44,115 nt of DNA from IMG/VR virus record IMGVR_UViG_3300050821_002944, positions 1 through 44,115 of that record. The stretch is one strand, 5' to 3'. A program made the translations under genes and the position numbers. Of the stretch, positions 9,037 through 25,350 are shown in pieces (position 1 is the stretch's first letter; each line of letters opens with the position of its first letter). The notes under the pieces are model-generated. The model ran no database searches. It was given only the letters and a program-made list of their open reading frames with translations, and was not told the DNA's origin. Origin of the DNA: a virus.

Positions 9037-9156
9037 CCGTCATACAGCCGTCATATTCCGCAAATTACTCTCGTGGAAGTAATTCGCGTTAGACGTTTAC
9101 TCCGTTAGACGTTTAACAGATCATGCGTAGCAACGTTTTACAGTCAAACGTCTAAC
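9037..9156. promoter_or_regulatory. Operator array upstream of the packaging operon
   Basis: Two motif families occur here. First, CCGTCATAC (9037-9045) and CCGTCATATTCCGC (9048-9061). Second, the dyad GTTAGACGTTTAAC: near copy 9088-9100, full copy 9104-9117, half-site ACGTTTTAC 9133-9141, and in the other orientation GTCAAACGTCTAAC 9143-9156. The region is A+T-richer than its flanks and lies 15 bases before the first leftward gene, so it is a probable repressor-controlled promoter. The remaining bases to 9240 show nothing else. Confidence 0.65.
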
Positions 9157-9530: not shown

Positions 9531-9597
9531 CCCTGAAAGCGGTTAAACGTCTAACAAGAACCCTTTCAGGGGGGCAAGTATTCGTTTAACGTCTAAC
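9531..9597. promoter_or_regulatory. Operator pair upstream of the HTH gene, one inside a 9-bp inverted repeat
   Basis: GTTAAACGTCTAAC at 9542-9555 and GTTTAACGTCTAAC at 9584-9597. The first is bracketed by CCCTGAAAG (9531-9539) and CTTTCAGGG (9563-9571), a perfect inverted repeat whose gene-proximal arm includes part of the ribosome binding site of the 9519 gene. CAAGTATTCG (9575-9584) abuts the second operator and recurs, inverted, at 18315-18324. Confidence 0.65.
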
Positions 9598-18127: not shown

Positions 18128-18255
18128 CGCAAGAGAATTGCGCCCAGCCTTTTCTTTCGTCAAGCAACTATTATCGCTATCCACAAGGTAACGTGCGTTT
18201 GAGCTCCAAGTCTGGTTATGCATCTGGGCCAACTTCATACGCTTGTTCGCGGTAT

Positions 18256-18351
18256 GTAAAACGTCTAACACCATGTAAAACGTTTAACACACTGTTAAAC
18301 GTCTAACAAACGGTGCGAATACTTGTGGAGAAAGCCCTGTTAAACGTTGAC
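18256..18351. promoter_or_regulatory. Operator array between the XRE gene and the recombination operon
   Basis: GTAAAACGTCTAAC 18256-18269, GTAAAACGTTTAAC 18275-18288, GTTAAACGTCTAAC 18294-18307 and the degenerate GTTAAACGTTGAC 18339-18351. The first three start 19 bases apart, so adjacent sites would face nearly the same side of the helix. GAATACTTG (18316-18324) matches, inverted, the CAAGTATTC next to the operators at 9.58 kb. Confidence 0.7.
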
Positions 18352-18399: not shown

Positions 18400-19227
18400 A
18401 TGAGCGATACTCAGTCAGCGGCCGAGGTCCCTTACCAGTTGGCTGCTGCGCCGCCCTCTGAGCCGCCCCCTTCGGCCTCTGGGGGCGGCGGCCTGCTCGC
18501 CATGATCGAGCGGCTCGCCACCAATCCGCAGCTCAACATCGAAGTGTTCGACCGGCTCCTGACCGCGCGCCGCCAAGAGGAGGACCGCGCCGCCGAACGC
18601 GCCTTCAACGACGCCATGAGCCAAGCCAAGGGCGAGCTGCAGCCGGTCCTCAAGACGCGCGATGTCGACTACCCGTCGAAGAAGGAAGGCGGCGGGCGCA
18701 CCAAGTACAAGTACGAAAATTTCGCCGATGTCGCGCGCTCCGTCGACCCGGTCTTTTCGGCGCACGGCCTCTCCTACCGCTTCGGCATCGAGCAGGGCGG
18801 CGATCTGGTCCGCGTCATCTGCATCATCTCCCACCGCGACGGCCACAGCGAGCGCATCAAGCTTGAGGGCAAGGTCGACCCAGGCTCGACCGGCATGTCG
18901 ATGGTGCAGGCGCTCGGGTCGGCGCTGACCTACCTGCAGCGATACTCGCTGCGCGCCGCAATCGGCCTCGCGGCTGGCGTCGACGACGACGGGAAAGGCG
19001 CGGGCGGAACGTCGCCCAGGATCGTCGCCGAACAGGCCAACGAGCTGCGCCAGCTCTTCGACCAGACAGGCCGCAGCGTAGCCACGATGCTCAATCTCAT
19101 CGGCGTCGACGACATCGATGAGATGAACGTCGACCAGTTCATGCGGGTCAGGGCCGCCCTCAACCTCGCCAAGGCAGAACAGAAGCGCACCAAGCCAGGG
19201 AACGACAATGCTCCAAGGAACGGTTGA
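18400..19227 (+). CDS. ERF-family single-strand annealing protein
   Basis: Anneals complementary single strands during phage recombination and genome circularisation. The ERF core is at residues about 65-200: ERAFNDAMSQAKGEL, the KYKYENFADVARSVDPVFSAHGLSYRF motif, then MSMVQALGSALTYLQRYSLRAAIGLA, a signature of the family. N-terminal Pro/Gly linker and a C-terminal NDNAPRN tail, which often binds SSB or nucleases. AGGAG lies nine bases before ATG 18400. Partner of the YqaJ exonuclease at 19749. Confidence 0.9.
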   Translation: MSDTQSAAEVPYQLAAAPPSEPPPSASGGGGLLAMIERLATNPQLNIEVFDRLLTARRQEEDRAAERAFNDAMSQAKGELQPVLKTRDVDYPSKKEGGGRTKYKYENFADVARSVDPVFSAHGLSYRFGIEQGGDLVRVICIISHRDGHSERIKLEGKVDPGSTGMSMVQALGSALTYLQRYSLRAAIGLAAGVDDDGKGAGGTSPRIVAEQANELRQLFDQTGRSVATMLNLIGVDDIDEMNVDQFMRVRAALNLAKAEQKRTKPGNDNAPRNG

Positions 19228-20446: not shown

Positions 20447-20947
20447 ATGCCCATGCAAAGTTTCACTTGGAACGGCCAAGCGATGATCCCGGCGAAGCCC
20501 CTGGCGGCGGTCAAGGAGTTCGTGCCGGGCCGCCGCTACTGGTTGGAGGAAGTCTCTGACAGGAGCTGGATCAGCCACCGGCATGAGTTCGCCTTCGTCG
20601 CCAATGCCTGGGACAATCTGCCTGAGGCGCTCGTCGAGACGTTCCCGACGAGCGAGCATCTACGCAAGGCGGCGCTGATCGCCACCGGCTGGTATCGCGA
20701 AATGGTCATCGAGGCAGGGAACGCGGCTGCGGCGCTGCGGGTCGCCGCCTACGCCAAGGGGCGGGATGAGTTCGCTCATGTCGTCACGCGCGGCCCGACG
20801 GTCATCGTGCGGTGGGCGCGCAGCCAGCGCATGCATGGCGCTGACCGGATGGACAAGGCCGAGTTCCAGAAATCGAAGGACGACATCCTGGGCTGGATCT
20901 CGAACCTACTCGGCGTCACGCCTGAGCGGCTCAGGGGCGCGGCATGA
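20447..20947 (+). CDS. DUF1367-like phage protein (166 aa)
   Basis: RRYWLEEVSDRSWISHRHEFAFVANAWDNLPEALVETFPTSEHLRKAALIATGWYRE is a pattern I associate with DUF1367 and related proteins of recombination regions (SHRH-x-FAxxxxAWxNLPE, FPTxEHLRKxAL). The C-terminal part has VTRGPTVIVRWARSQRM and KAEFQKSKDDIL. Biochemical role not established; perhaps an ssDNA-associated accessory protein. Start ATG 20447 or 20453. Confidence 0.75.
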   Translation: MPMQSFTWNGQAMIPAKPLAAVKEFVPGRRYWLEEVSDRSWISHRHEFAFVANAWDNLPEALVETFPTSEHLRKAALIATGWYREMVIEAGNAAAALRVAAYAKGRDEFAHVVTRGPTVIVRWARSQRMHGADRMDKAEFQKSKDDILGWISNLLGVTPERLRGAA

Positions 20948-21261
20948 AGCCGGTGAACTGTCCTCGTTGCGGGGCGTTTCTCTTGCTTTGCGATGCGGCA
21001 GCCGCTCCGCGTGCGCCCAAGCCGTGGGCCGACGACACGCGGATCAACGACCTCCCCGTTAGCGCCCGCGCAAAGAACATCGTGAATAACAGCACATGGG
21101 ACAGCGACGCCAACGCCTGGGTGCGGACGAACCGCTTCCTCACGGCTGGCGATGTAGACGCAGCCGATGACAAGGAGCTTCTTCGCCTTACGAACTTCGG
21201 CAGAGTTTCCCTGAAGGAACTTAGAGAGGCGATCAAAACCCTCAAAGAGCAGACGGCATGA
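20944..21261 (+). CDS. Stand-alone RNA polymerase alpha-CTD-like protein with N-terminal Cys pair (105 aa)
   Basis: Residues 34-100 match the alpha subunit C-terminal domain: INDLPVSARAKNIV (first helix) and TAGDVDAADDKELLRLTNFGRVSLKELREAI (helix-hairpin-helix). By eye alignment to E. coli RpoA, Arg265, Asn268, Asn294, Gly296, Ser299 and Glu302 correspond to Arg42, Asn45, Asn84, Gly86, Ser89 and Glu92; Lys298 is Val88. A CPRC pair (Cys6/9) precedes it. Probably binds A+T-rich promoter DNA or competes with host RNA polymerase. ATGA-coupled on both sides. Confidence 0.8.
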   Translation: MKPVNCPRCGAFLLLCDAAAAPRAPKPWADDTRINDLPVSARAKNIVNNSTWDSDANAWVRTNRFLTAGDVDAADDKELLRLTNFGRVSLKELREAIKTLKEQTA

Positions 21262-21605
21262 CCCGCCTCCCGTTCACCAAGGCGGCGGCGATGGCCATCG
21301 TCTTGCGCTCGACCGACATGCAGGGGCGGACATGGTGCGAGCAGTGCGGGGCCGAGTGCCTGTCGCGCGCTGATTTCGAGATCGATCACGTCGTGGCCGA
21401 GGGCATCCTGCCCGCCAATGACAACCGCGCGCCGCTCACCGCCGAGGACGGAAAATTGTTGTGCCTCAAGTGTCACGACAAAAAGACCAAGCGCGACGTG
21501 TTCGAGATCGCCAAGTCGAAGCGCATGGGGAGGAGGCACCGCGTCGTCGGCAAGGGACCAACCGAGGTCGCCCGCCGGTTCGGCGTCAAGCAGGAGCCAG
21601 ACTGA
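21258..21605 (+). CDS. HNH endonuclease, phage type (115 aa)
   Basis: CEQCG (Cys27/30), EIDHVVAEG (Asp43-His44), then LLCLKCHDKKTKRD (Cys69/72, His73): a zinc-containing HNH nuclease of the compact phage type, unlike the homing type at 19208. In tailed phages such nucleases can assist packaging, but here it lies in the early operon. Coupled by ATGA upstream and TGATG downstream. Confidence 0.85.
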   Translation: MTRLPFTKAAAMAIVLRSTDMQGRTWCEQCGAECLSRADFEIDHVVAEGILPANDNRAPLTAEDGKLLCLKCHDKKTKRDVFEIAKSKRMGRRHRVVGKGPTEVARRFGVKQEPD

Positions 21606-22435
21606 TGCGGCTCATTCGCGTCTTTCCCCGGCGGACCAAGGCGAGCCCCCTCGATCCTCTGGCTTATTTCGGGCCGCCTGACTTGTTCGCTGAAGCCGAA
21701 GAAGTTCATGTCTCGGTCGCCTTCACCTACGACAAGCGGCAGGCCGAGCAGCTCGCCGAGCAGTGGCGCTTCGTGGCCCCGACAAAGATCGGCGGCGTCG
21801 CCTATGGCGATCCCGGCCAAGAGTTCGTCCCCGGTCGCTACGTCAAGGACGGCTACATTTTCACCTCGCGCGGCTGTCCGCGCAAATGCTGGTTCTGCTC
21901 AGTCTGGAAGCGCGATCCGGTCCCGCGATTGCTGCCGGTCGTTGATGGCTGGAACATCCTCGACGACAATCTGCTGGCCTGCCCGCGCGAGCATGTCGAG
22001 GCGGTGTTCGCGATGCTCAGGCGGCAAACCCGCCGCGTCGAGTTTACGGGCGGCCTGGAGGCCCTGGCGCTTGAGGATTTCCACGTCGATCTCTTGGCCT
22101 CGCTGAAGCCGCGCCCGACCATGTTCTTCGCCTACGATCCAGGCGACGCCTTTGAAACTCTGGAGCATGCCGCGCGCCGCCTCATCGCCGCTGGCTTTCG
22201 GCCAGAGGCGCACCGCATGCGGGTCTATGTTTTGATCGGCTATCCGAAAGACACGTTCGCTCTGGCCGAGACGCGGTTGCGCTCGATGAGCGCCATCGGA
22301 TTTATGCCGATGGCCATGCTGTGGCGGCCCGAAACGCCGAGCCAGGAGAAGTGGCGGCCTGACGCGCGCTGGCGCGGATTTCAGCGTCTCTGGGCGCGAC
22401 CTGCAATCATCCACGCCATGCAGGAGGCTGCATGA
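21605..22435 (+). CDS. Radical SAM protein (276 aa)
   Basis: FTSRGCPRKCWFCSVW holds the CxxxCxxC iron-sulfur motif (Cys91, 95, 98); later VEFTGGLEAL resembles the GGE SAM-binding segment and the body keeps a TIM-barrel-like alternation. Radical SAM enzymes use a 5'-deoxyadenosyl radical for methylation, insertion or rearrangement. Substrate unknown; nucleic-acid modification is a reasonable guess from the operon. Start ATG 21605 in TGATG with the HNH gene. Confidence 0.85.
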   Translation: MRLIRVFPRRTKASPLDPLAYFGPPDLFAEAEEVHVSVAFTYDKRQAEQLAEQWRFVAPTKIGGVAYGDPGQEFVPGRYVKDGYIFTSRGCPRKCWFCSVWKRDPVPRLLPVVDGWNILDDNLLACPREHVEAVFAMLRRQTRRVEFTGGLEALALEDFHVDLLASLKPRPTMFFAYDPGDAFETLEHAARRLIAAGFRPEAHRMRVYVLIGYPKDTFALAETRLRSMSAIGFMPMAMLWRPETPSQEKWRPDARWRGFQRLWARPAIIHAMQEAA

Positions 22436-24131: not shown

Positions 24132-24317
24132 GTGAAACGCTATTGCGTGCGCGCCAACGGCGAGCCGAGGGACCCCAAGTTCCTCGGCTACCCGTTCGTC
24201 GTAATCGATACGGCGACAAACAAGGTCGCCATGCTGGCCAATACACGGCGCAGCGCCTTGAACTACGCCAAGGCGCAGGAGGTCAGATCGCGAAGCGCGG
24301 GCTCTTGCCCCGCCTGA
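24132..24317 (+). CDS. Small unknown protein after the integrase (61 aa)
   Basis: GTG 24132 ten bases after the integrase stop encodes MKRYCVRANGEPRDPKFLGY...; a compact alpha/beta look (FVVIDTATNKVAML). The frame ends 35 nt inside the convergent PEP-CTERM gene. GAGG lies ten bases upstream. Possibly an excisionase-sized factor, but no helix-turn-helix is evident. Confidence 0.45.
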   Translation: MKRYCVRANGEPRDPKFLGYPFVVIDTATNKVAMLANTRRSALNYAKAQEVRSRSAGSCPA

Positions 24318-25005
24318 GGCCCGCCCAGGCCATCGCCGCTGCGCCCAGGATCAGCATCGCCCAGGTCGAGGGTTCCGGCACGGCGCCGGTCTCCATGCTC
24401 TGGTTGAAGCCGGTGATCGAACCGTCGGCGCGCAACGCCAGCGCCGCGCCCTCGGTCATCGAGAACGGCGCAGAGGCGTCGAACGCCGCCAGTTTCGAAC
24501 CGGAGAACGAGTCGGGGTCGGTCAGCGCGTGGCCGCTCACTGTCTCAAGCAGAGAGCCTGGCGTGTTCGTCGGGTTCGCCCCTTGGGTGTCGAGCGCATC
24601 GGCCCAGAATTTCAGTGTGCTGTCGGGGGCGCCGACATTGGCGTTGAAGGTGAGCGAGCCGGAATTGCGGACGAAGCTGACCGGCGCGGTGAAGCCCGTA
24701 TCGGAGGCGAGCAGCGTGACGGTGATCGGCACGCCGAGCGTGTCCTCGATGTTGCTCGACGAGAGCTGCAGCGAGTTGTGCGCGCCGAACGTGCTTTGCG
24801 TCAGCGTGAGCTGGACGAACGCCCCGCCGACGGTCGTGTCGACCGTGAGCAGGTTGTTGGCGCCGCCCGACTGGTCGCACGACAGTTCGCCGTCGAAGCA
24901 GGTGAAGGTCGAGACGCCAGAACCGATGCTGAGTTGCAAGCGGGCTTGAGCTGCGGTCGTGCCGAAGGCGAGCGCGAACGCGCCTGCGAGAAGGATGCTT
25001 TTCAT
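24283..25005 (-). CDS. PEP-CTERM sorting domain protein, probable cargo gene (240 aa)
   Basis: Exported protein: signal peptide MKSILLAGAFALAFGTTAAQA at residues 1-21, a beta-rich body with a CFDGELSC pair, and a PEP-CTERM signal beginning at residue 209 (VPEPSTWAM, hydrophobic LILGAAAMAWAG, then LRRGK). In bacteria with exosortase this tail directs processing and surface retention, often in exopolysaccharide matrices. It is antisense to the early operon, next to the integrase and isolated from virion genes: a lysogenic-conversion candidate. The start at 25005 is set by the signal peptide. Confidence 0.88.
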   Translation of the reverse strand: MKSILLAGAFALAFGTTAAQARLQLSIGSGVSTFTCFDGELSCDQSGGANNLLTVDTTVGGAFVQLTLTQSTFGAHNSLQLSSSNIEDTLGVPITVTLLASDTGFTAPVSFVRNSGSLTFNANVGAPDSTLKFWADALDTQGANPTNTPGSLLETVSGHALTDPDSFSGSKLAAFDASAPFSMTEGAALALRADGSITGFNQSMETGAVPEPSTWAMLILGAAAMAWAGLRRGKSPRFAI

Positions 25006-25350
25006 GGAAGGGACCCCGGTTTCGAAGAATGCCCGACTGTAGCCGTTCATCATGACAAGCGCGAGAATTTTATTCCCCGTACCGAGTTTTAGGTACGGGG
25101 ATCGCCCTCCAAGACGCCTGGTTTTCCTGGGGTTTTTGTGACAGATCGAATTTCGATCCGAAATGCAGGCTTCGTGGGAAAACAAGGGCTTAGGCGATTT
25201 TCCCCGTACTTTGGCCCTCCAGCGACTTCTAAGGCCAGCGAGCGCCCATCCCCGTACCTCTTGGCCCATAGGTGCAAATCTTTGGCCCGCACTAACATGG
25301 CGCTACGCGGGCGAGGTGTTATATGTTAGCCCAATGGCAACGAAGCGAGC
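25006..25350. promoter_or_regulatory. Upstream region of the PEP-CTERM gene with CCCCGTAC repeats
   Basis: CCCCGTACC (25075-25083) and GGTACGGGG (25092-25100) form a perfect 9-bp inverted repeat; CCCCGTACTTTGGCCC (25202-25217) and CCCCGTACCTCTTGGCCC (25250-25267) repeat the arm 48 bases apart. The set lies 70-260 bases upstream of the PEP-CTERM start and reads as regulator-binding sites. No gene seen here. Confidence 0.45.

Follow-up and report, generated by a model that had tools for sequence, protein, structure and literature searches.

The C-terminal domain of the RNA polymerase α subunit (αCTD) reads UP elements and is the main docking site of bacterial activators. Arg265 and its neighbours bind the minor groove of the UP element, while Glu261 makes contact with sigma and the 287 surface with activators. 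Modification of this domain by phages is known, as with Alt/ModA of T4. Phage cleavage of α is also described, for Rac (PMC7552054). Several phage-encoded proteins are similar to αCTD by annotation, namely ORF40 of Erythrobacter phage vB_EliS-L02 (PMC9127768), gp133 of Caulobacter phage CcrColossus (AFU88003.1) and the BFVD entries of Mycobacterium phage Mithril (A0A5Q2WLP1) and an uncultured Caudovirales (A0A6J5QDR9). In gp133 the αCTD is fused to a HisRS-like domain and in gp23 of Ruegeria phage V16 to a pyrophosphatase-like domain, whereas the protein described here is a stand-alone chain of 105 residues with a CPxC motif at its N-terminus. A full-text literature search, with subscription papers mostly outside it, found no functional study of phage αCTD proteins. 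Such proteins are already annotated and functionally uncharacterised in the searched literature, and the present one is a modified form.

The window, by which we mean the whole stretch of DNA analysed, corresponds to a 44,115-base virus record in IMG/VR, which may be a fragment. Its source is probably a temperate phage of an alphaproteobacterium; relatives of its NinB-like protein in Brevundimonas, Nitratireductor, Bosea and a Rhizobiales MAG suggest this host. The αCTD-like gene lies in an operon with the order Erf-like protein, HNH nuclease, RecE/lambda-type exonuclease, NinB/Orf-like protein, αCTD-like protein, HNH nuclease, radical SAM protein, small genes and integrase (Table 1). The first-pass annotation had proposed a free-standing αCTD encoded at this position, and the open frame is confirmed, with an ATG start and 105 codons. 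It had also placed the gene in an ATGA-coupled set with an HNH nuclease and a radical SAM enzyme. ATGA overlaps do flank the gene, with the NinB-like stop at 20947 and the HNH start at 21258, while the junction between the HNH and radical SAM genes is TGATG (21603-21607). The HNH assignment is firm; the radical SAM assignment comes from phrog_9298, although the match to PF04055 in Pfam is below the cut-off.

Table 1. Coordinates in the window of the αCTD-like gene, its parts and its neighbours
Feature	Position	Strand	Evidence
Repressor-type operators (likely), three tandem palindromes GTTAAACGTCTAAC, upstream of the operon	18254..18310	.	Palindrome scan
Erf-like single-strand annealing protein, first gene of the operon	18400..19227	+	phrog_155, E 6e-34
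NinB/Orf-like recombination mediator	20447..20947	+	phrog_15346, E 2.9e-38; weak phrog_319 (NinB/Orf)
Gene of the free-standing αCTD-like protein	20944..21261	+	ORF list, Pfam, family profile, AlphaFold model, structural matches
N-terminal segment with CPRC pair (C6, C9), residues ~1-22	20944..21009	+	Alignment of relatives
αCTD-like domain, residues ~29-102	21028..21249	+	Residue alignment, family profile, structural matches
Insertion between αCTD helices 1 and 2, predicted β-hairpin	21088..21129	+	Alignment, AlphaFold model
HNH nuclease	21258..21605	+	PF01844, 31.5 bits
Radical SAM protein, CPRKCWFC motif	21605..22435	+	phrog_9298, E 1.7e-15

Palindromes resembling GTTAAACGTCTAAC occur in about eight copies, in clusters at 9088-9156, 9542-9597 and 18254-18310, and give 16 strand-matches in the window against 0.33 expected. 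These clusters are likely repressor operators, and their arrangement looks like the repressor system of a temperate phage. Since the operon sits behind them, we infer that the αCTD-like gene is expressed early and under repressor control. Scanning for sigma-70 promoters gave none beyond chance expectation; host promoters may differ from this model. The integrase is directly followed, on the other strand, by the gene of a PEP-CTERM (exported, sorted) protein (24283-25269, minus strand, motif near 24378). The same arrangement is found in the related contigs L002, L003, L004, L005, L019, L033 and L034, and L134 has another PEP-CTERM gene on the plus strand; it looks like recurrent lysogenic cargo. 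A further record, IMGVR_UViG_3300021475_000019 (L002/L040 and L033; 52 kb), contains two separate NinB-like/HNH/integrase early regions and perhaps represents two adjacent prophages.

Residues ~29-102 of the protein are homologous, by sequence, to the RNA polymerase αCTD across the whole domain. An HMM search against PF03118 had been proposed as a check. PF03118 is indeed the top Pfam match (E 1.2e-4), but it covers residues 67-98 only and with 22.2 bits against 23.8 the protein alone stays under the cut-off. The match is split by an insertion of about 13 residues between helices 1 and 2, so the first half of the domain is lost and the score falls short. The relatives L037 (47.5 bits) and L026 (45.0 bits) match PF03118 over nearly the whole domain, both above the cut-off. 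We built a family profile from 45 viral αCTD-like rows, leaving out L002 (89% identical to the window protein) as well as the window protein itself. This profile scores the window protein at 54.9 bits over residues 29-101 (E 5e-16, 2001 sequences) and no other open frame of the window above 4 bits. Chance resemblance can be rejected, as the best of 2000 shuffles of the same protein reaches 7.2 bits. The protein also aligns pairwise with an alphaproteobacterial αCTD across residues 33-97, and its sequence matches are specifically to αCTD. No other Pfam domain exceeds the cut-off and an N-terminal domain of α (αNTD) is absent; with 105 residues and no αNTD, the protein is not RpoA. Direct searches with the protein returned a single viral relative (L002), tblastn found nothing in phages, plasmids or genome contigs, and PHROGs has no family for it.

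The AlphaFold model computed from 47 sequences has a pLDDT of 86.9; a model from just two sequences reached 43.7 and was discarded. In agreement with the fold named by the first-pass annotation, the model superposes on solved αCTDs (Z 7-8.4). RpoA/αCTD chains occupy the top 13 rows in VIA-align 2, with Z of 7.4-8.4, and the compact αCTDs superpose mostly at 1.6-2.1 Å over 62-67 residues. The αCTD of B. subtilis (1z3e) gives Z 8.4 and 1.9 Å over 64 residues, that of Synechococcus (9dvt) Z 8.2 and 1.6 Å over 62 residues, and the Caulobacter αCTD on AT-rich DNA (9zum) Z 7.8 and 2.1 Å over 66 residues with 29% identity. Foldseek E-values are weak (best 0.067). The protein is predicted to adopt the αCTD fold with a β-hairpin insert. 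Helix-hairpin-helix domains of the RAD51 family rank next, below the αCTDs, with Z of 6-7.3; because of this the margin of the fold is modest and the case rests on sequence. As αCTD, RAD51-family and other helix-hairpin-helix domains are structurally alike, the fold alone cannot fix the function. Their likeness gives some ground to the view that the protein is an accessory of the recombination cluster (Erf, exonuclease, NinB-like, HNH), in which the αCTD fold would serve as a generic helix-hairpin-helix grip on DNA with no role in transcription. The neighbouring recombination genes and the ATGA coupling with the NinB-like gene fit this view as well. We consider it unlikely, given the αCTD-specific sequence matches and the distribution of the gene.

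This distribution was followed in contigs related to the window. Five proteins form a subfamily with a CPxC N-terminus: the window protein, L002, L037, L026 and L134. Identity to the window protein is 89% for L002, 42% for L037 and 39% for L026, and about 35% at the lowest in the subfamily; L037 and L026 were located through contigs that share the neighbouring NinB-like gene. In a tree of the short domain the five group together with a support of 0.81, and the deeper origin is left unresolved by the tree. The NinB-like and HNH genes are retained in about 30 related contigs, of which only four have the αCTD-like gene, and the gap between the two retained genes varies from 0 to ~1.7 kb with varied gene content. 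The gene lies in this gap in the window and L002 and directly after the HNH gene in L037 and L026, whereas the short L134 member, which lacks the insertion, adjoins a helicase gene. From the variable content and sporadic presence it follows that the gene is facultative, an accessory cargo of the recombination operon. Its absence from most phages retaining the NinB-like and HNH genes, and its positions beyond HNH or beside a helicase, speak against a dedicated recombination function.

The same sporadic presence could be expected of cargo without a strong role, namely an αCTD fragment, derived from a host or borne by phages, that drifts in a variable slot. The GC3 of 71.7% also fits, being below that of the Erf-like, NinB-like, HNH and integrase genes (84-89%) though not below every neighbour, as does the loss of Lys298 and Glu261 described below. 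Against such drift, the translationally coupled frame is intact in four phages at 39-89% identity and the family-specific CPxC is conserved. The dN of 0.065 against a dS of 0.149 between the window and L002, which derives from 25 differences only, points in the same direction. We therefore judge neutral cargo to be very improbable. In 289 genomes of Alphaproteobacteria, a second PF03118 match was found in 12. Some of these come from an RpoA divided between contigs or from αCTD-like regions in other proteins, and no clear relative of the window protein is among them.

A comparison with the E. coli αCTD shows which surfaces are retained. The DNA-contact residues named by the first-pass annotation are correct by alignment: Arg42, Asn45, Asn84, Gly86, Ser89 and Glu92 correspond to Arg265, Asn268, Asn294, Gly296, Ser299 and Glu302, so that six of seven residues of the contact set are present, and Val88 stands at Lys298. 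A valine at this position is found in 7 of 76 viral domains, while L037, L026 and L134 have a basic residue. The position of Arg265 is arginine in the MAFFT alignment of 47 sequences, window included, and in each of the 73 different viral domains aligned at this point. It lies outside the search motif, but the confirmation step used L026, itself a carrier of arginine, so that the latter count is supportive rather than independent. The position of the sigma-contact Glu261 is Pro38 in the window protein, alanine in L037 and glutamate in L026, and that of Asn268 is histidine in L002. DNA affinity or specificity may be altered by the changes at 298 and 261 in the window protein and at 268 in L002.

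Overall the protein resembles the RpoA αCTD (PF03118; 9zum, E. coli 1lb2/3n97) in a homology of ~62-67 residues, in the predicted fold and in the retained contact residues. The earlier reading as an αCTD thus holds for the domain, but the differences argue against a plain copy. In contrast to RpoA it has no αNTD or linker, lacks the C-terminal GLxLGM tail, has Val and Pro in place of Lys298 and Glu261, and carries a β-hairpin after helix 1 and an N-terminal CPxC segment. In the model the strands of the hairpin comprise residues 50-53 and 58-61, and those close relatives in which the insertion occurs retain a Trp within it. The CPRC pair noted earlier is indeed at residues 6-9. A leading MK and CPxC are common to the window protein, L002, L037 and L026, and L134 has CPHC. 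The five members have one CPxC pair each and no conserved second pair of metal ligands, so a normal zinc ribbon would not be formed within one chain. On this ground the protein was not taken as a complete zinc ribbon; matches to LysW/DUF7575 are weak and under the cut-off.

The pattern of retained residues also bears on a possible decoy, which would mainly capture the usual αCTD partners in the host (activators or sigma region 4) and so de-activate host promoters in a dominant-negative manner. An αCTD surface free of polymerase would suit this, and anti-host genes often lie in accessory slots such as this one. But with proline at the sigma contact, a 285-289 stretch unlike that of host αCTD and DNA-face residues better retained than protein-contact ones, a decoy appears improbable.

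The first-pass annotation had suggested competition at UP elements, transcription activation or titration of activators, which are all candidate roles. Judged from its sequence, the protein is most likely a small DNA-binding modulator of host-polymerase promoters. More specifically, we give an even chance to a detached, phage-adapted αCTD that acts as a DNA-binding module and alters promoter use of the host RNA polymerase without an αNTD. It would be synthesised early from the repressor-controlled recombination operon and would bind the A+T-rich minor groove in the fashion of UP-element recognition, and weak binding is to be expected. Having no αNTD, it cannot be assembled into polymerase; it may shift promoter use by standing beside or replacing the host αCTD. 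Since Glu261 and Lys298 are not kept, we favour occupancy or competition over a faithful sigma-activating mimic: the protein would occupy or compete for A+T-rich upstream DNA, and the hairpin and N-terminus would provide a new partner contact. Searches of the record for an RNA polymerase β' subunit and for sigma-70 region 4 found neither, which fits reliance on the host enzyme; as the record may be a fragment, this absence carries little weight. The search of the record for a T7-type polymerase had no positive control.

The window protein is not unique in viruses. A scan with one motif found αCTD-like domains in at least 91 viral contigs, and public phage records already carry this annotation. 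The loci encode anything from a short stand-alone chain to a fusion with a different N-terminal region. Phage fusions to pyrophosphatase-like (L170/L076) and HisRS-like (L075) domains are observed, and L142, L146, L150, L185, L193 and others have long N-terminal parts with, by eye, starts like excisionase/MerR-type helix-turn-helix. Contamination by host rpoA was rejected, as a full RpoA is not encoded by any of the 80 viral ORFs examined; L189 and L191, however, seem to derive from RpoA. Records labelled as Salmonella or Acinetobacter "phage" with rpoA look like host DNA and were left uncounted.

A broader proposal, which we put forward as rather doubtful, is that detached αCTDs, in phages of many groups, form a general class of transcription effectors that plug in at promoters of the host RNA polymerase. 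The present subfamily would then be a modified form that occupies UP-element DNA with its hairpin and CPxC half-ribbon; two chains, bridged by a metal, may imitate the pair of αCTDs in RNA polymerase. The spread over so many viral contigs suggests a widespread class that a single biochemical test could open, and host αCTD–DNA structures, including the Caulobacter one, make functional testing direct. With such domains scattered through many phages, phages may commonly use αCTD-like domains to influence transcription.
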